Positions 9,321 through 26,785 of a stretch of DNA of 32,512 bases are shown here, piece after piece. The notes beneath the pieces are model-generated. The model did not search any database. It worked only from the letters and a program-made list of their open reading frames with translations, and was not told the origin of the DNA. Both the position numbers and the translations under genes were made by a program. Numbering within the stretch: the first letter of the stretch is position 1; each line of letters starts with the position of its first letter. The DNA comes from Methanobacteriota archaeon (GTDB lineage: Archaea; Thermoplasmatota; Poseidoniia; Poseidoniales; Thalassarchaeaceae). The DNA is taken from contig PAYZ01000025.1 of assembly GCA_002716085.1 (NCBI GenBank), positions 1 to 32,512 on the forward strand. The letters are read 5' to 3'.

Positions 9321-12300
9321 TCACATATTCCTTCTGAATTTCCCACCGCTCTCGAAGAGAGCTTGGGTGACCTGTCCTACTGAGCAATGGTTCACTATCT
9401 CCATCATCACTTCGAACAGGTTTCCACCTTCCCTAGCCGTCTCCTTCAGTCTTGCCAGGCTCGCCTCGGACTGGGAAGAGTGGGTGTCCTTGAACTCCTT
9501 GTTTCGGGAAATCACCATCATCTTCTCGGAGTCGTCGGACCTTGTCACCTCGATGTCGAATTCCTCCGCGGAGGGAGTAGCTGATCCGGGGTCAGTGAAC
9601 ATGTTCACGCCGACGATGGGGGTCTCCCCGGAGTGCTTCCTGTTCTCGTAAACCATGCCCTCGTCCTGTATCCTGTTTCTCTGGTAGTTTACTTCCAATG
9701 AGCCGAGGACACCCCCTCTGCTGTGCATCTCCTCGAAGATCCTCAGCACCTTCTCCTCGACCTCGTTGGTCAAGTACTCGGCTACGAATGACCCCTGCAA
9801 TGGGTTCTCGTTTCTAAGCCAGCCATACTCCTTTGCTAGAATTAGCTGTATGGCAACAGCGTCCCTTACTGTGTCCTCGGTGGGGGTGCCGAAAGCCTCG
9901 TCTCGGCTATTTGTGTGGAGGCTGTTGGCATTATCAGCTAGGGCATATAGTGCCTGGAGGGTGGTTCTGTAATCGTTCCAAGTGTACTCCTGTGAGTGGA
10001 GGGAGCGCCCGCTCCCTTGGATGTGGTACTTCAGCTTCTGACCCCTCTCACCTACACCGTACAAATCCCTCATGGCTATTGCCCAGATCCTTCTGGATAC
10101 CCTTCCAATAACTGCGTACTCGGGATCCATCCCATTCGAGAAGAACCATGAGAAGTTCCTCAGGAATTTATCCGGATCGAGGCCCCGCGCCTTGAACAGC
10201 TCCACATAGGTAAGTCCGTTCGAAAGGGTGAGTGCTGCTTGGGTAATCGGGTTGGCGCCCGCCTCGTCAATATGGTAACCGCTAATGCTGACGAAGTAGT
10301 GGTTCCTGACCTCATTATCAACGTAGAACTCTGCAACATCGCCCATCATCCTGAGTGCTGTATCCAGATTGAAAACCAGGGTATTCTGCCCCATAGCCTC
10401 CTTCAGTTGGTCAGCTTGAACTGTGCCCCTGACCGTTGAAAGGGCGAAGGAGCGGATCTTGGATTGCTCGTCTTCGTTAGGCTCCCTGCCGTTCTCCTCG
10501 ACGAATTTCCTAGTTTGCTGCCTAATTGCTACGTTGAAGAATGCGGCTAGGTGCCACCAGTAGTTTCCATTGATCGTCATGCTGACCGATGTATTCGGAG
10601 CGCAAAGGTCGAAACCATCGAAGAGTCTGTCCATCTCTTCCACGGTGCTGATACTTACTCCCGACTCGCAAACCTTCCCAAAAATGTCGAGCCTCTCTTG
10701 TGGGTCGTTTCCGTAAAGGCTCGGGGAGTCGAAGGCGACTGAGAGCCTATTGAAGGGTTGATCCTTGGATAGGAAGTGGTACCTCTTGTTTGTCCTCTCA
10801 GCACTGCCCTCGCCTGCGAACATTCTGACTGGCAACTCGTCTTCTCGCCTGAAGGGGAAGACCCCTCCTGTGAAAGGGAACTCCCCTGGTGCGTTCTCTT
10901 TCCTGACCCAGTGCAGTCGCTCCCCCCAGTCTTCAGTTGTCGGGAGCGCTACACGTGGAACCCTCGTCCCGGACATTGTCTCATGTGTAGTCTTGACAGG
11001 AATCTCCTTGTCGCGAACAGTGTAGCTTGCCTGACCTGAGCGATATGCCTCGGCCATGGAGTCGAATTCGGAAAGGGAGTCCCAAGCCTCCTGCGGAACC
11101 CTTGACCTGATTGATTCCGCCTCATCCGATAGGTCCTTCCAAGCTCCTTCTTTTCCAGAGGACTTCATGGCCTCAGCTGCCGCTTCTAACTGCTGAACCA
11201 TTCTAACTGATCTGACCACCTCTCGGGTCCTCTCGTGGTAGCTCCTTACAGAAGAGGCGACTTCTGCAAGGTAGCCCTGCCTCTCCGGAGGTATGGGCGG
11301 GTCCCTGCTAGGCAATCCATCGGGACCCATGCGAGGTTTGCTTGCTGAGAAATCGGTGCCAAATTTCTCATTTAGCAGGCTCGCCATCATCTCCCAAAGT
11401 CTGTCCACCCCGGCATCGGCGAATTGACTGGCTATGGTGGGGACGACAGGCATTGATTCGGGGGATTCTTCGAACGCCTCCCTGTTGCGTTGGAATTGCT
11501 TCCTAATCTCTGACAAAGCGTCCTCTGCTCCCGGCCTGTCGAACTTGTTTAGGACCACAATGTCCGCGAAGTCTAGGGCTGCAAGCTTCTCCAACTGGCT
11601 GGGAGCTCCGTACTCCCTGGTAGTGACGTAAAGGGAAACGTCAGAGACCTCGGTAATGGCGTCGTTGCCCTGGCCAATCCCACTCGTTTCGACCAGGACT
11701 AGATCGAATCCTACTGCTTGGCAGGCCTCAACTGCCCGATTGATGCAGTCTGCGATCTCCCTGCCGCTTCCCCTGCTTGCGAATGACCTCATGAACAAAT
11801 TGGGGTCGGTCAGGGAGTTCATTCGTATCCTGTCACCAAGCAAGGCGCCGCCTGTCTTCTTCCTAGTAGGGTCCGTAGCTAGCAATGCTACCTTGTATCC
11901 CGGATTGTCTCGCCTGATTCTAAGCATCACCTCGTCCATTAGGCTGGACTTACCGGCCCCGCCGGTACCCGTGATCCCTACAACTGGGCATCCTTCGGAT
12001 GGGTCTCTGGACCGAAGCCTGGATAGTTCTTGCTCGAAAACCTCCCTCGAGGAGTTCTCTGCCAGAGTAAGAAGGCGTGAGACTGCCCCGTGATCTTCTG
12101 CTGTGACAGGGGAGGAAATGGATTCGAATCTAGAGTTGTCCAGGAGGTCGGTTTTTGCGGCCTGCTCCATGGCATCCTGGACCATCCCAACCAGCCCTAG
12201 ATCCCTGCCATCATCGGGGGAGTAAATCCTAGCAACACCCTCGTCCCTGAGTTGGTCGATCTCATGGGGCAGGATCGTCCCGCCCCCTCCTCCGAAAAGG

Positions 12301-12641
12301 AAAACGTGATCGAAACCTGATTCAGAGAGGATGTTCTTGGTGTGAGTGAACATCTCGACTGCCCCTCCTTGGTACGAAGTGATCGCAACGGCATGGGCGT
12401 CTTCTTGGATTGCTGCCCTGGCAACTTCGTCGGCGCCCCTATCGTGACCCAGGTGGATCACCTCGCAGCCCTGGCTCTGCAGAATCCTCCTGAAAATACC
12501 TATCGCTGCATCATGGCCATCGAAAATGGCAGCAGCCGTGATTACCCTCAGAGGCTGACTGTTCCGTTTGGCCCCTTCATCGGACGCAGGGGACTTTGGT
12601 GCTGGATTGCTTGCCACGATGCTCCGAAGAGCCGCTTCCAC
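9321..12641 (-). CDS. icmF: Fused isobutyryl-CoA mutase with chaperone GTPase (IcmF)
   Basis: This adenosylcobalamin enzyme rearranges the carbon skeleton of acyl-CoAs (isobutyryl-CoA to n-butyryl-CoA in the known family). The order is B12-binding domain (residues 30-165; FDGHDAA with axial His 43), a MeaB-like GTPase (P-loop GTGGAGKS at 225-232, NKFD), a linker, and a TIM-barrel mutase (about 560-1106) ending QALFESGGKFRRNM. The barrel reads GVFPF and GQNT where methylmalonyl-CoA mutases carry Tyr and Arg, so the pocket has the Phe/Gln pair of IcmF and predicts isobutyryl-type rather than methylmalonyl-type substrates. The 1106 residues are full length and the start is GTG. It is divergent from lgt across 98 bases, in which I see no convincing TATA box for either gene. 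Confidence 0.93.
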   Translation of the reverse strand: MEAALRSIVASNPAPKSPASDEGAKRNSQPLRVITAAAIFDGHDAAIGIFRRILQSQGCEVIHLGHDRGADEVARAAIQEDAHAVAITSYQGGAVEMFTHTKNILSESGFDHVFLFGGGGGTILPHEIDQLRDEGVARIYSPDDGRDLGLVGMVQDAMEQAAKTDLLDNSRFESISSPVTAEDHGAVSRLLTLAENSSREVFEQELSRLRSRDPSEGCPVVGITGTGGAGKSSLMDEVMLRIRRDNPGYKVALLATDPTRKKTGGALLGDRIRMNSLTDPNLFMRSFASRGSGREIADCINRAVEACQAVGFDLVLVETSGIGQGNDAITEVSDVSLYVTTREYGAPSQLEKLAALDFADIVVLNKFDRPGAEDALSEIRKQFQRNREAFEESPESMPVVPTIASQFADAGVDRLWEMMASLLNEKFGTDFSASKPRMGPDGLPSRDPPIPPERQGYLAEVASSVRSYHERTREVVRSVRMVQQLEAAAEAMKSSGKEGAWKDLSDEAESIRSRVPQEAWDSLSEFDSMAEAYRSGQASYTVRDKEIPVKTTHETMSGTRVPRVALPTTEDWGERLHWVRKENAPGEFPFTGGVFPFRREDELPVRMFAGEGSAERTNKRYHFLSKDQPFNRLSVAFDSPSLYGNDPQERLDIFGKVCESGVSISTVEEMDRLFDGFDLCAPNTSVSMTINGNYWWHLAAFFNVAIRQQTRKFVEENGREPNEDEQSKIRSFALSTVRGTVQADQLKEAMGQNTLVFNLDTALRMMGDVAEFYVDNEVRNHYFVSISGYHIDEAGANPITQAALTLSNGLTYVELFKARGLDPDKFLRNFSWFFSNGMDPEYAVIGRVSRRIWAIAMRDLYGVGERGQKLKYHIQGSGRSLHSQEYTWNDYRTTLQALYALADNANSLHTNSRDEAFGTPTEDTVRDAVAIQLILAKEYGWLRNENPLQGSFVAEYLTNEVEEKVLRIFEEMHSRGGVLGSLEVNYQRNRIQDEGMVYENRKHSGETPIVGVNMFTDPGSATPSAEEFDIEVTRSDDSEKMMVISRNKEFKDTHSSQSEASLARLKETAREGGNLFEVMMEIVNHCSVGQVTQALFESGGKFRRNM

Positions 12642-12739: not shown

Positions 12740-13507
12740 ATGGAGTTTCCAGTTATGGTTCTGGGCATCCACCCCCATTTGCTGTTCGAGGTTCTGGGCT
12801 ACATCGGGGGACTTGCTACTACTGTCTGGATATCTTCTTCGAGAGAAGACACGGTGGAGCCCGAGCAACGTCATGCTCTGATAGTTGCAGGACTGTTCGG
12901 GGCCCTGTTGGGGGCCAAGTTACTGGCATGGGCCCAGCACCCCCAAGCTACATTCCTAGCTGCAACAGAGGAGCCCGCCTTCCTGCTTGGTGGGAAGACC
13001 ATTGTCGGGGGACTCCTGGGGGGGATGGCGGCGATAGAGCTGGCGAAAAAGGCGATGGGGATAACAAAGAGGACGGGGGACGCGATGGTGCTGCCACTGG
13101 TCGTCGGAATGAGCATCGGGAGGATTGGCTGCTTCCTGACTGGACTTGAGGACTCGACATTCGGGATAGAGACTGGGCTCCCATGGGGGATAGATCTCGG
13201 GGACGGGGTGAGTAGGCACCCTACTGCCCTGTATGAAATTCTGGCACTGTGGGCTATTTACTTCTCAATCCGCCATTACTCGATTACGAATATTGTTCCC
13301 TCTGGTTGGGAGTTCAGGAGCTTCCTCATGTCATACCTCGCTTGGAGGCTTTTGGTCGACTGGATTAAGCCGGCTGATTGGGAGCTGGTCTTCTTTTCTC
13401 CGATCCAGATCGCCTGTGTAATGGGGTTATCATGGTACGTAACTTTCGGAGTGATGACTGATGATGAATGGGCAATGGCGGGGGATAGTTCAAGCCTAGA
13501 GGGGTGA
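12740..13507 (+). CDS. lgt: Lgt-family prolipoprotein diacylglyceryl transferase
   Basis: Lgt moves a diacylglyceryl group from a phospholipid to the lipobox cysteine of secreted preproteins. The 255-residue polytopic protein has GGKTIVGGLLGG at 84-95, GMSIGRIGCF at 123-132, PWG near 148-150 and the late RHPTALYE block. All are in the family order and length. The family Asn after GRIG (GRIGNF in E. coli) is Cys here, a variant I recall in several bacterial Lgt subfamilies. Lgt is classically bacterial, and an archaeal enzyme would have to use an archaeal or mixed-type lipid donor. It sits 19 bases before the radical SAM gene, so co-transcription is likely. Family call firm, substrate inferred. 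Confidence 0.85.
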   Translation: MEFPVMVLGIHPHLLFEVLGYIGGLATTVWISSSREDTVEPEQRHALIVAGLFGALLGAKLLAWAQHPQATFLAATEEPAFLLGGKTIVGGLLGGMAAIELAKKAMGITKRTGDAMVLPLVVGMSIGRIGCFLTGLEDSTFGIETGLPWGIDLGDGVSRHPTALYEILALWAIYFSIRHYSITNIVPSGWEFRSFLMSYLAWRLLVDWIKPADWELVFFSPIQIACVMGLSWYVTFGVMTDDEWAMAGDSSSLEG

Positions 13508-13526
13508 CCCAGTAAATGGGCTTGCA

Positions 13527-15029
13527 ATGAGTGGGAGAGTCAGGGACTACCTTTTCTACGACACGGCCACATCAGTTTGCTCGAGCTGCCTGAGAAGGTC
13601 TGACGGGAAGATAATCATCCGAGGAGGCTCAGTCTTCATGGACAAACTTTGCTATTCGTGCGGCAAGAGGGAAGAGGTGCTTTTAGCCGATGATGCTGAC
13701 TATTACCGGAGGGCAAGAGAGGTCTACGTGAAGCCTAGCGAGATGCCAGAAAAGTGGAATACTCCTCTTAAGTATGGGTGCCCGTATGACTGCGGCCTAT
13801 GTCCGAGCCACGAGCAGCACTCCTGCCTAACTCTGATTGAGATTACGGATCATTGCAACCTGAGGTGCCCTGTCTGCTATGCCTCATCTGGACCGGAGAG
13901 GCACGAGGACTACAGGTCATTCGATCATGTTGTGAGGATGCTGGACGCGGTGGTAGAGAACGAAGGCGAGCCGGACGTAGTCCAGATCTCAGGGGGCGAG
14001 CCTACCCTCCATCCGGATTTCTTCAGGATTCTAGATGCGGCAAAAGACAGGCCGATTCGGCACATAATGGTCAACACTAATGGGATCAGGATAGCAAACG
14101 AGCCTGAATTCGCCGAGAGGTTGGCTCGATACATGCCTGGTTTCGAAGTATACCTCCAGTTCGATAGTCTTCAGAGGGAGCCCTCGATGAGGCTTCGCGG
14201 AGCCGACCTAAGGGAGGTGAAGAAGAAGGCTCTCGAGAACCTGAACGCTCACGGAATCTCCACGACTCTAGTATCGACGATCAGCAGAGGGCTGAATGAC
14301 GGAGAGATGGGTGATCTGGTTGAGTTCGCGCTCTCGCAGCCCTGTGTTCGGGGAATCACTTTCCAACCGATACAGGAGGCTGGGAGATCCGAAGACTACG
14401 ATCCATCCAAGGAGCGCCTGACACTTACTGAGGTAAGGAGGAGAGTGGGGGAGCAATCCTCTACTTTCATGGTCGACGACATGCTTCCTGTCCCTTGCCA
14501 CCCAGATAGCTTGTCAATGGCATACGCGCTGAAAGTAGGAGGCTCGGCCGTCCCCCTTACCAGGTACATCGACGACGAGACGCTGCTAGCTGGACCACGC
14601 TCGACGATACAGTTCGAGAAGGACCCAGCGATGCGTGAGGCGATACTCAACCTACTCTCGACGGCTCACTCCCCGCAAACAGCTAGCCACTCCCTTGCAG
14701 AACTCCTGTGTTGCCTCCCGGAGCTTTTGGTCCCGTCAGAATTCTCCTACGAGAACGTCTTCAGGATCATCATCATGGATTTCATTGACGCCCACTCGTT
14801 CGACTTGAGGAGCGTAAAGAAGACTTGTGTCCATATCGTAAGCCCGGACCTGCGCCTCATACCCTTCGATACGTACAACATGTTCTACAGGGGTGACTTG
14901 GAAAGGACGGTTCTGGAGCCCATCAGGAGGGAGCTTGCACTGTCGGGACAGGCCCTCCTATCCCCGGATGAGCGGAAAACCATCTTGAGCCCCCTTCCAG
15001 TGATTCAGATAGAGGAGGTGGCAGAGTGA
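13527..15029 (+). CDS. Radical SAM protein of the MJ0619/Tes (tetraether synthase-like) group
   Basis: The 500-residue protein has the radical SAM cysteines in CNLRCPVC (C110, C114, C117) and the QISGGEPTLHPDFF SAM-binding block. The N-terminus has two CxxC pairs (C18/C21 and C42/C45), fitting a rubredoxin-like iron site, then GCPYDCGLCPSHEQHSC (85-100), fitting an auxiliary iron-sulphur cluster. This set is that of the MJ0619 family, first described as pterin methylases and later shown to include tetraether synthase, which joins archaeol chains into GDGT lipids. The middle (LRGADLR, STTLVSTI, QPCVRGITFQPIQ) looks closest to a bacterial branch, as far as I can judge from memory. ATG 13527 was chosen because the earlier ATG 13515 meets a stop at once. 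The substrate is not proven; a pterin or other lipid substrate is possible. Confidence 0.75.
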   Translation: MSGRVRDYLFYDTATSVCSSCLRRSDGKIIIRGGSVFMDKLCYSCGKREEVLLADDADYYRRAREVYVKPSEMPEKWNTPLKYGCPYDCGLCPSHEQHSCLTLIEITDHCNLRCPVCYASSGPERHEDYRSFDHVVRMLDAVVENEGEPDVVQISGGEPTLHPDFFRILDAAKDRPIRHIMVNTNGIRIANEPEFAERLARYMPGFEVYLQFDSLQREPSMRLRGADLREVKKKALENLNAHGISTTLVSTISRGLNDGEMGDLVEFALSQPCVRGITFQPIQEAGRSEDYDPSKERLTLTEVRRRVGEQSSTFMVDDMLPVPCHPDSLSMAYALKVGGSAVPLTRYIDDETLLAGPRSTIQFEKDPAMREAILNLLSTAHSPQTASHSLAELLCCLPELLVPSEFSYENVFRIIIMDFIDAHSFDLRSVKKTCVHIVSPDLRLIPFDTYNMFYRGDLERTVLEPIRRELALSGQALLSPDERKTILSPLPVIQIEEVAE

Positions 15030-15544
15030 GCGAGGAGGAGCTGCCGGACTGGGTAGTATCTACCGAGGAGGGGGGCGACGATTTCTCCAAGATCGACACC
15101 GATGGTGATGGAAAGATCAGCAGGGAGGAGTTCGAGGCCGCAATGGGGAAAGCGCCATTGCTCACGGGAGATGTAAACGCGTTGAAGGAATCTGCTGGTA
15201 GTCAGGGTGAAAGCCTGTTCCAGCCATTGGATGAGATCAAAAAACCGATGAACAGCAACCTTCAGTTCTTCCTGGGAACGATTGTTTATCCAATTGGAGT
15301 CATCATTCTTACATGGCCAATTTCGGCGGTTTTCTACGCTACTGGTTCAGATGAGCTCGCGGGGCTCGCGAGTTTTGGCGTCGTTGGCATAGGGTACGTG
15401 GGGGGTGCAGCATGGGGATTCTCCTCCGGCCACAGTTCCTTCGCATGGGGGGTTCTTGCATCTCTGATAATCATCCCCGGTCTGATTTTCGGATTGGTAT
15501 TCGGATTCTGCATGCTTATGATTAGTACTGGTAATGGATTCTGA
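15026..15544 (+). CDS. Small membrane protein with one N-terminal EF-hand
   Basis: The GTG start at 15026 overlaps the radical SAM stop (GTGA), so it is translationally coupled. The first 80 residues are acidic and soluble, with a canonical EF-hand loop at residues 24-35 (DTDGDGKISREE: acidic ligands at 1, 3, 5 and Glu at 12). A short linker and about three hydrophobic segments (near 90-110, 113-135 and 142-168) follow, rich in Gly. It has no recognised enzymatic motif. With only one EF-hand, calcium binding would normally need a dimer or a partner. Its place behind lgt and the Tes-like gene suggests a membrane role, but no function is assigned. Confidence 0.72.
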   Translation: MSEEELPDWVVSTEEGGDDFSKIDTDGDGKISREEFEAAMGKAPLLTGDVNALKESAGSQGESLFQPLDEIKKPMNSNLQFFLGTIVYPIGVIILTWPISAVFYATGSDELAGLASFGVVGIGYVGGAAWGFSSGHSSFAWGVLASLIIIPGLIFGLVFGFCMLMISTGNGF

Positions 15545-25027: not shown

Positions 25028-26785
25028 ATGGCGTCGTATGGTCCCGAAGACCTGGAGGGGATTTCACTGGGTCCGGGAGAAGTTGTTTCCGAAGCTCTAG
25101 AGAGGAAGCTGGGGCTTTTCTCGGTCGTAATAATCTCGCTATCTGCCATGATCGGATCAGGGCTTTTCTTGCTTCCTTCTCTGGCTATGCTAGAGATGGG
25201 CGGCGGTGAGTCCCCTGCAGGGGGGGTCTGGCTAGCCTACCTTGCTGCTTCGCTGGTCGTCCTTCCCGGTGCTATCTCGAAATCTGAGCTTTCCACTGCA
25301 ATGCCATCCTCAGGTGGTTCCTACCTCTATGTCGAGAGGGCTTTCGGACCGCTGGTTGGTACTATCTCCGGACTGGGGCTCTGGGCCAACTTCATGCTGA
25401 AGTCTGCATTCGCCCTAATTGGGTTCAAGGCCTATCTTTGGGTTTTTGAAGAAATACTAGCCCCGAGTTGGGAGGAAGGATGGCTGTCAGAAAATGTCAA
25501 CCTGATAGCACTCATACTTCTGGCGATTATCGTTGTAATCAATATTCTCGGAGTCAAGAGCATCAAGAGGGTGCAAATTCCGATAGTCATGTTCTCCACC
25601 ACATACCTGTTCGCGATATGCATCTGGGCCCTGATGACCTCTGACCTAAACTGGGACGCGGCGACATCGAGGGAGGCAATTGGGGGAGGATGGAGTTCTG
25701 TGGCTACCACAACGGCATTTGTTTTCGTTTCCTATGCCGGGGTTACCAAGATAGCTGCTGTTGGGGGAGAGGTGAAGAATCCGGAGAGGAACCTTCCCTA
25801 CGGAATACTACTCTCCCTGTTGATTAGTTGTGCATTGTACGTCACTGTGACTCTTGTCATGGCTCTGACTGTTGATCCCGCAGGATACATGAGCTACGAT
25901 GGCTCAAAGGCTCGTGAGGACCCAGTCTACGTATTTGCTGATGCTGTTGGGGGTAAGACGGTGGCCAACATTGCGGCATTTCTGGCAGTGTTGACCATGG
26001 CATCGATGTCACTAGCAGGGATTCTAGCATCATCACGATTTCCGTTCGCCATGTCCAAGGACCGGCTAATGCCTGAATTTCTAGAGGGGATTCACGAGAA
26101 GTACAATACCCCGCATTGGGCGATAATTGCCACGGGCCTGTCCATCGCGGCTGCACTGACCTTACTGGACGTCAAAGACGTGGCCAAACTCGCCTCTGGG
26201 TTCAAGATCATGATTTTCATGGTGATAAACGGTTGCGTCATCGTCCTACGTACATCTTCTTCGTCGCATGGGTGGTATCGTCCCGAATGGAAGACGCCGT
26301 GGCCCCTTTACCCTGGGATCCAGTTGTTCGGAATCTTTGGTGGTGCAGGACTTCTATTTTTGATGGGATCGAAGGCTGTAATTGGCGCCACTGCTTCTAT
26401 TGTCCTAGGGTCGATAATCTACTTGGGCTATGGGAGAAGTCACTCTGAGCCAAGGATCACTCCTTGGGATTCAGCCGTCAAGAAGATCTTGGACCCAAGG
26501 GGGGCGGAGACAAGAAGGCGATACGCGGCATTCTACGAGTCTGACCTTGAAGGTAAGGGAAGCCTCGATCTGGGAGAGTTCGTTAGTGCGGTTTTGTTGC
26601 TAGGATACATCGACAAGGGGGGTGCAAACATCCCAGATGATTCGATCGTTGTTTCTAGGACCAAGTCTAGCCAGAGAGACCAGACTGTTAGGGACATCTT
26701 CCGTTCTGGGGACGAGAATGAGGATGGGCTTATTGACATCGAGGAGTTCCTAAAGATGGCAGATGAAATCGAACCCCAGCGTTGA
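25028..26785 (+). CDS. APC-superfamily amino-acid permease with C-terminal EF-hand pair
   Basis: Residues 30-475 form an APC transporter: LFSVVIISLSAMIGSGLF helix 1 (GSG unwinding site), SELSTAMPSSGGSYLYV, FVSYAGVTKIAAVGGEVKNPERNLP (the helix 6-7 E-x-K-N-P signature) and about 12 helices in all. A cytosolic tail of about 100 residues then carries two EF-hand loops: a weak one at 506-517 (D-L-E-G-K-G-S-L-D) and a canonical one at 562-573 (DENEDGLIDIEE). EF-hand tails on APC transporters are unusual and suggest calcium-dependent control of transport or assembly. ATG 25028 is in a 78-base divergent region with the FKBP gene. The transported amino acid is unknown. Confidence 0.88.
   Translation: MASYGPEDLEGISLGPGEVVSEALERKLGLFSVVIISLSAMIGSGLFLLPSLAMLEMGGGESPAGGVWLAYLAASLVVLPGAISKSELSTAMPSSGGSYLYVERAFGPLVGTISGLGLWANFMLKSAFALIGFKAYLWVFEEILAPSWEEGWLSENVNLIALILLAIIVVINILGVKSIKRVQIPIVMFSTTYLFAICIWALMTSDLNWDAATSREAIGGGWSSVATTTAFVFVSYAGVTKIAAVGGEVKNPERNLPYGILLSLLISCALYVTVTLVMALTVDPAGYMSYDGSKAREDPVYVFADAVGGKTVANIAAFLAVLTMASMSLAGILASSRFPFAMSKDRLMPEFLEGIHEKYNTPHWAIIATGLSIAAALTLLDVKDVAKLASGFKIMIFMVINGCVIVLRTSSSSHGWYRPEWKTPWPLYPGIQLFGIFGGAGLLFLMGSKAVIGATASIVLGSIIYLGYGRSHSEPRITPWDSAVKKILDPRGAETRRRYAAFYESDLEGKGSLDLGEFVSAVLLLGYIDKGGANIPDDSIVVSRTKSSQRDQTVRDIFRSGDENEDGLIDIEEFLKMADEIEPQR

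Follow-up and report, generated by a model that had tools for sequence, protein, structure and literature searches.

An Lgt-like protein and a radical SAM protein of the Tes/TrsS superfamily form an obligate gene pair with altered catalytic residues in marine group II archaea

Introduction

A three-gene unit on a 32,512-nucleotide contig of a marine group II (MGII) archaeon of the Thalassarchaeaceae (PAYZ01000025.1; the whole stretch is called the window here) raises the question of whether these organisms combine the lipoprotein-modifying enzyme Lgt with a tetraether synthase (Tes). A sequence-only reading of the window had named the first gene lgt, had called the second, which encodes a radical S-adenosylmethionine (SAM) enzyme, Tes-like, and had counted a small membrane protein with one canonical EF-hand as the third member. 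Tes homologues are used to predict tetraether-making microbes, and hence sources for palaeothermometers such as TEX86. Here, we show that the first two proteins belong to known families and that what is new is their obligate pairing with altered catalytic residues. No paper describing an Lgt-like/Tes-like gene pair was found in the literature searched.

Results

Among 340 genomes of the class Poseidoniia, the radical SAM gene was detected in 20, or about 6%. Each of these 20 also has the Lgt-like gene immediately before the radical SAM gene, in the same orientation, and in MGII loci -4 to +41 nucleotides (nt) separate the stop of the one from the start of the other. No MGII genome had the radical SAM gene without the Lgt-like gene, and in a 21st genome (G028) the Lgt-like gene is truncated by the contig end. 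Co-occurrence in the 340 genomes gave a Fisher p of 2e-31, which, as the genomes are related, measures linkage and not independent trials. In named GTDB genomes, a scan returned 18 loci, all in MGII-type metagenome-assembled genomes of Thalassarchaeaceae and Poseidoniaceae and all with the Lgt-like gene upstream. In 390 genomes of the phylum, Lgt-like matches were confined to the Poseidoniia carriers, and radical SAM matches with E of 1e-15 or better occurred in 236. Between loci, sequence identity in one protein tracks identity in the other (r 0.88, uncorrected for shared ancestry). That the two genes form one unit, as the sequence-only reading had proposed, is thus borne out by an adjacency far beyond chance.

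In the window's genus, icmF and lysE lie on one contig with the cassette between them in 4 genomes and with an empty site in 16. These contiguous empty sites rule out incomplete assembly as the cause of absence within the genus, and presence is therefore truly patchy. In a genome of another genus (G259, locus L046), the three-gene unit lies elsewhere in the genome. There, the third gene shares 51% identity with that of the window, against only 39% for carriers G017 and G012 from the window's own genus. The cassette thus appears to travel as a whole. Recent acquisition of foreign DNA is disfavoured by GC content and GC at third codon positions (GC3), which match host values. A phage origin was rejected, no phage match being found, and a scan of viral contigs yielded only distant radical SAM fragments. 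Two further genes were noted at L046: a small secreted protein with the lipobox-like signal FSTISAGC directly downstream of the cassette (L046:8116-8727) and, about 3 kb upstream, a flavoprotein resembling geranylgeranyl reductase by sequence appearance (L046:631-1890).

The pairing extends across domains. Outside MGII, the closest homologue found among plasmid records (53% identity) is encoded by the megaplasmid pPP1 of Persicobacter psychrovividus (NZ_AP025293; Bacteroidota), where the Lgt-like gene overlaps the radical SAM gene by 11 nt. About 2.2 kb downstream of this pair lies a large open reading frame (ORF) that by appearance encodes a PfaA-like polyketide/polyunsaturated fatty acid synthase (L116:11575-17004). 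All four high-scoring non-canonical Lgt-like matches in the plasmid collection (Bacteroidota and Actinomycetota) have a Tes/TrsS-like radical SAM gene close by. In the actinobacterial pairs, from Mycobacterium avium pS2b, M. branderi, and Nonomuraea, the Lgt-like gene adjoins the radical SAM gene or is separated from it by at most two small genes. In haloarchaeal and Mycolicibacterium relatives, a methyltransferase gene is found next door instead of the Lgt-like gene. Two Thermoplasmatota genomes (L094, L095) encode relatives of 35-38% identity in which the three C-terminal cysteines discussed below are all present, and the genome search detected no Lgt-like gene in them.

The radical SAM protein matches PF04055 (E 1e-26), the MJ0619-type zinc ribbon PF23545 (E 1e-10) and, over nearly its full length, the tetraether-forming enzyme GDGT-MAS (MJ0619, 7TOL; E 2e-66; GDGT, glycerol dialkyl glycerol tetraether). 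Its best NCBIfam score is with TrsS (NF045646, 312 bits), followed by Tes (NF045702, 268 bits), and both are under the curated cut-offs of 490 and 450 bits, respectively. Scores under the Tes cut-off were obtained in all 20 carriers; Thermoplasmatota TrsS proteins reach 520-534 bits on the TrsS profile. None of the 340 genomes encodes a Tes above its cut-off, which the controls M. jannaschii, S. acidocaldarius, and M. acetivorans all pass. In the tree, the MGII proteins group with Persicobacter (support 100/99), apart from a clade of 7TOL and curated Tes (100/99) and from curated TrsS (100/100), and the approximately unbiased (AU) test rejected a constraint placing the MGII proteins together with Tes (p 3e-64). 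A single clade for all Lgt-linked radical SAM proteins received weak support (73/16). By sequence, the protein thus represents a third clade of the Tes/TrsS superfamily, outside proven Tes and outside TrsS. A defence role was also considered and rejected, the sole sign of it being generic similarity to viperin-type radical SAM proteins.

GDGT-MAS binds a rubredoxin-like iron, an N-terminal [Fe4S4]N cluster, the radical SAM cluster and a C-terminal [Fe4S4]C cluster with a labile Met439, at which an S-C bonded lipid intermediate forms (PMC9433317). The cysteines of the first three sites are present in the MGII protein (C18/C21/C42; C85/C89/C92 with H95; C110/C114/C117); in the rubredoxin-like site, C33xxH36 of Tes appears as CxxC, with C45 in place of the histidine. 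The Met of [Fe4S4]C is kept (Met417). The equivalents of 7TOL C338/C455/C470 are Ser/Thr/Asp in all 16 MGII sequences and Ala/Ser/Glu in Persicobacter. The same three cysteines are retained in 28 of 28 other relatives (9 Tes, 10 TrsS, and 9 others). The alignment is anchored by the flanks HCGTSTY/PDSLSMAY, RCCIHYATPD/KTCVHIVSPD, and IPFC/IPFD. We infer that these cysteines ligate [Fe4S4]C, a cluster that Tes needs for its chemistry, since they are the only three in the C-terminal 200 residues of the Tes proteins L103, L112, and L115; the text of PMC9433317 does not name the ligands. As the remaining cysteines conserved in the MGII clade comprise C324, C395, C396, and C434, the cluster may be lost or re-sited; C273 is specific to the clade. 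The Tyr459 position is Ile in the MGII protein, which is not decisive because Y459 variants of GDGT-MAS are active and both Y459 and M439 are dispensable (PMC9433317). The predicted structure is poor (pLDDT 54), and its top match is 7TOL (E 3e-24).

The Lgt-like protein matches PF01790 with 67.6 bits (E 1e-18; cut-off 24.9), and its family profile matches E. coli Lgt 5AZB (E 7e-15). On the NCBIfam Lgt models, it scores 37-38 bits and does not reach the cut-offs of 119 and 334. In E. coli Lgt, R143/Y235/R239 belong to the site holding the diacylglyceryl part of the donor, H103 is the proposed binder of the lipobox peptide, and H103 and Tyr26 are essential, mutations of either inactivating the enzyme (PMC4728403). 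The donor residues (R128/Y199/R203 in the window) are invariant in the MGII and bacterial Lgt-like proteins, and the GR-G signature and the glycine pair after position 103 are retained. Position 103 is Val, Met, or Leu in 18 of 18 sequences (V89 in the window), so that the essential histidine, that of HGGL in Lgt, is missing. Tyr26 is very probably missing as well: its counterpart depends on the alignment, being an invariant His (H13) with MAFFT and Glu20 with pairwise HMMER, and is not Tyr either way. Further substitutions affect M100 (Lys/Arg), N146 (Cys) and E243 (Asp in MGII). Judged from these residues, the protein seems to have preserved its donor side and to have lost the side that accepts the peptide. 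In the Lgt tree, Persicobacter stands next to MGII, the MGII subclades are those of the radical SAM tree, and canonical Lgts are set apart (100/99). Most MGII genomes contain no detectable Lgt of any kind. A housekeeping lipoprotein pathway was rejected, as no Lgt was detected in MGII genomes lacking the radical SAM gene, with a sole exception that ends at a contig edge. The first gene is therefore no canonical lgt and, as it occurs nowhere else in these genomes, does not represent a general lipoprotein system.

The feature table summarizes the locus. The three plus-strand ORFs and the cysteine motifs given by the sequence-only reading (CPYDCGLC, CNLRCPVC, and two CxxC pairs) were confirmed, as were its gaps of 19 and -4 nt, the latter an overlap of the EF-hand gene start with the radical SAM stop. 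The third protein has an EF-hand (PF13202, E 9e-8) and hydrophobic segments at residues 77-105 and 136-172. At this position, MGII loci conserve a membrane protein of about 160-400 amino acids (aa), whose EF-hand is limited to the window, L046, L047, and L048, which cover a fraction of a single genus plus a related locus. The EF-hand is thus rejected as a conserved part of the unit and is incidental to it; of the third member as first described, the membrane protein stands and the conserved EF-hand does not. Weak homologues of the third gene occur between icmF and lysE even where the Lgt-like/radical SAM pair is absent. Elsewhere in the window, positions 25028-26785 encode an amino acid permease with a C-terminal pair of EF-hands, an unusual fusion, so that membrane-protein EF-hands recur here, and positions 9321-12641 encode an IcmF-type fused acyl-CoA mutase/GTPase (1485 bits against a curated cut-off of 1500).

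Table. Genes of the unit and selected sites within the radical SAM protein, in window coordinates
Feature	Position	Strand	Evidence
Lgt-like integral membrane protein, 255 aa	12740..13507	+	PF01790 E 1e-18; 5azb profile E 7e-15; residue table
Radical SAM protein, 500 aa	13527..15029	+	7tol E 2e-66; below Tes/TrsS NCBIfam cut-offs; tree and cysteine table
Small membrane protein with one EF-hand, 172 aa, GTG start	15026..15544	+	Pfam PF13202; ORF call
Rubredoxin-like metal site C18/C21/C42/C45	13578..13661	+	7tol alignment; PF23545
N-terminal auxiliary [Fe4S4] motif C85-x3-C89-x2-C92-x2-H95	13779..13811	+	Alignment
Radical SAM cluster motif C110-x3-C114-x2-C117	13854..13877	+	Pfam; alignment
Ser328 at the Tes Cys338 position (inferred [Fe4S4]C ligand)	14508..14510	+	7tol alignment
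Thr433 at the Tes Cys455 position (inferred [Fe4S4]C ligand)	14823..14825	+	7tol alignment
Asp448 at the Tes Cys470 position (inferred [Fe4S4]C ligand)	14868..14870	+	7tol alignment

Discussion

Since an Lgt-family and a Tes-superfamily protein share one conserved unit, a lipid module is plausible, and the sole characterised homologue of the radical SAM fold is a lipid enzyme (PMC9433317). We favour the reading, with a probability of roughly 0.45, that two obligately linked enzymes with remodelled chemistry make up a mobile, accessory module for glycerolipid modification. The idea of a lipid module acting on membrane lipids or on the lipid of lipoproteins thus survives in its broader form, and its tetraether version is disfavoured. 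MGII lack the archaeal glycerol-1-phosphate enzyme, and their lipids may be based on glycerol-3-phosphate or mixed (PMC6461757, PMC6962369), so that the glycerolipids encountered by both enzymes would be of bacterial or chimeric type. The Lgt-like protein might bind a phospholipid donor in its retained Arg/Tyr/Arg pocket and present it, or it might transfer the diradylglyceryl group of this donor, though not to a lipobox peptide. Its radical SAM partner would then take a hydrogen from the chain or head of the lipid via the 5'-deoxyadenosyl radical. Unlike in Tes, the first radical could not be stored on a canonical C-terminal cluster, so that the outcome would most likely be a modification other than the chain coupling of Tes, or else involve a cluster re-sited to C324/C395/C396/C434. 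It is tempting to extend this to a cross-domain system: the Lgt-like protein would present phospholipid to a radical SAM enzyme with its C-terminal cluster at the new four-cysteine site, and an undescribed lipid would be made in planktonic archaea and some bacteria. We consider this extension improbable.

Several observations weigh against a glycerolipid-modifying module. The lipid substrate and the activity, like the order of reactions and the alternative cluster, are deduced from sequence and gene context. TrsS relatives are about as close as Tes. Given the loss of His103 and probably Tyr26, the Lgt-like protein could be no transferase at all. The donor-pocket residue E202 is Glu in only 7 of 14 MGII sequences, and Foldseek with the AlphaFold model of the Lgt-like protein (pLDDT 73) gave no significant PDB match, the Lgt fold not being recovered.

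The strongest competitor, although unlikely, is a radical SAM system of the TrsS type that acts on something other than a lipid, in which the Lgt-like protein would be a mere membrane partner. The top NCBIfam score, the methyltransferase partners of haloarchaeal and Mycolicibacterium relatives and the loss of the N-terminal cluster in actinobacterial Lgt-linked proteins fit such a system, which explains little as long as the substrate of TrsS itself is not established. Moreover, the TrsS cut-off is missed too, and the linkage of two independent lipid-family proteins across archaea and two bacterial phyla favours a lipid. More doubtful still is a lipoprotein pathway, with the Lgt-like protein as the lipidating enzyme and the radical SAM protein acting on the anchor so attached: PF01790 membership and the lipobox-like secreted protein just downstream in one relative (L046) are consistent with this, but the residues required for peptide lipidation are not conserved, and no Lgt is detectable in the majority of MGII genomes. 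A genuine tetraether or macrocyclic diether synthase coupling lipid tails in MGII is very improbable, because full-length homology, three intact sets of cofactor cysteines, the retained Met439 equivalent and the dispensability of Y459 and M439 are set against sub-threshold scores in every carrier, the AU rejection, replacement of the inferred ligands of the very cluster on which the GDGT-MAS intermediate sits, carriage by so few genomes, and MGII-dominated waters without intact polar lipid GDGTs (PMC6962369). As no Tes above the family cut-off occurs in the 340 genomes of the class, tetraether synthesis by MGII is disfavoured, and the data speak against it.

Compared with the sequence-only reading, linkage has become stronger and Tes function weaker. 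Within the Tes superfamily, the MGII clade was the sole group detected in Poseidoniia, and a loose BLAST search could miscount it as Tes. Zeng et al. 2022 (PMC8941075) listed one MGII match at 28% identity, which may be the present clade. The invariant Lgt-like partner is a concrete, testable clue to what uncharacterised Tes homologues of bacteria and archaea do and, likewise, to the lipids of marine group II.

Among known systems, GDGT-MAS/Tes (MJ0619, MA_1486; 7TOL, NF045702) shares with the MGII radical SAM protein full-length homology, the zinc-ribbon/rubredoxin domain, the [Fe4S4]N motif, the radical SAM core and Met439, and differs in clade, in C338/C455/C470 (S328/T433/D448 here), in Tyr459 (Ile), in H36 (Cys), and in gene context, the MGII gene always being preceded by the Lgt-like gene. 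The TrsS radical SAM (seleno)protein (NF045646) is the top-scoring family and has equivalents of C324 and C434, but the score stays at 312 of 490 bits, TrsS retains all three [Fe4S4]C cysteines, and related haloarchaeal and mycobacterial genes adjoin a methyltransferase gene and not an Lgt-like gene. With E. coli Lgt (5AZB, PF01790), the Lgt-like protein has in common the family match, GR-G, R143, Y235, R239, and the glycine pair; it differs at H103, Y26, M100, and N146, and its gene is not a housekeeping gene in MGII. The actinobacterial pairs likewise combine an Lgt-like protein of the H103-lacking kind with a nearby Tes/TrsS-superfamily gene, whereas their radical SAM proteins in M. avium and Nonomuraea lack the N-terminal cluster cysteines and keep the C-terminal ones (L117:7905-9443 and L118:7962-9464), a mirror image of the loss in MGII and Persicobacter. 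Closest to the MGII unit is the Persicobacter pair, which has lost the same three cysteines and has the Lgt-like gene upstream, and which differs in its Bacteroidota host, an Lgt-like protein of 31-33% identity, a retained H36, and the absence of a third gene.
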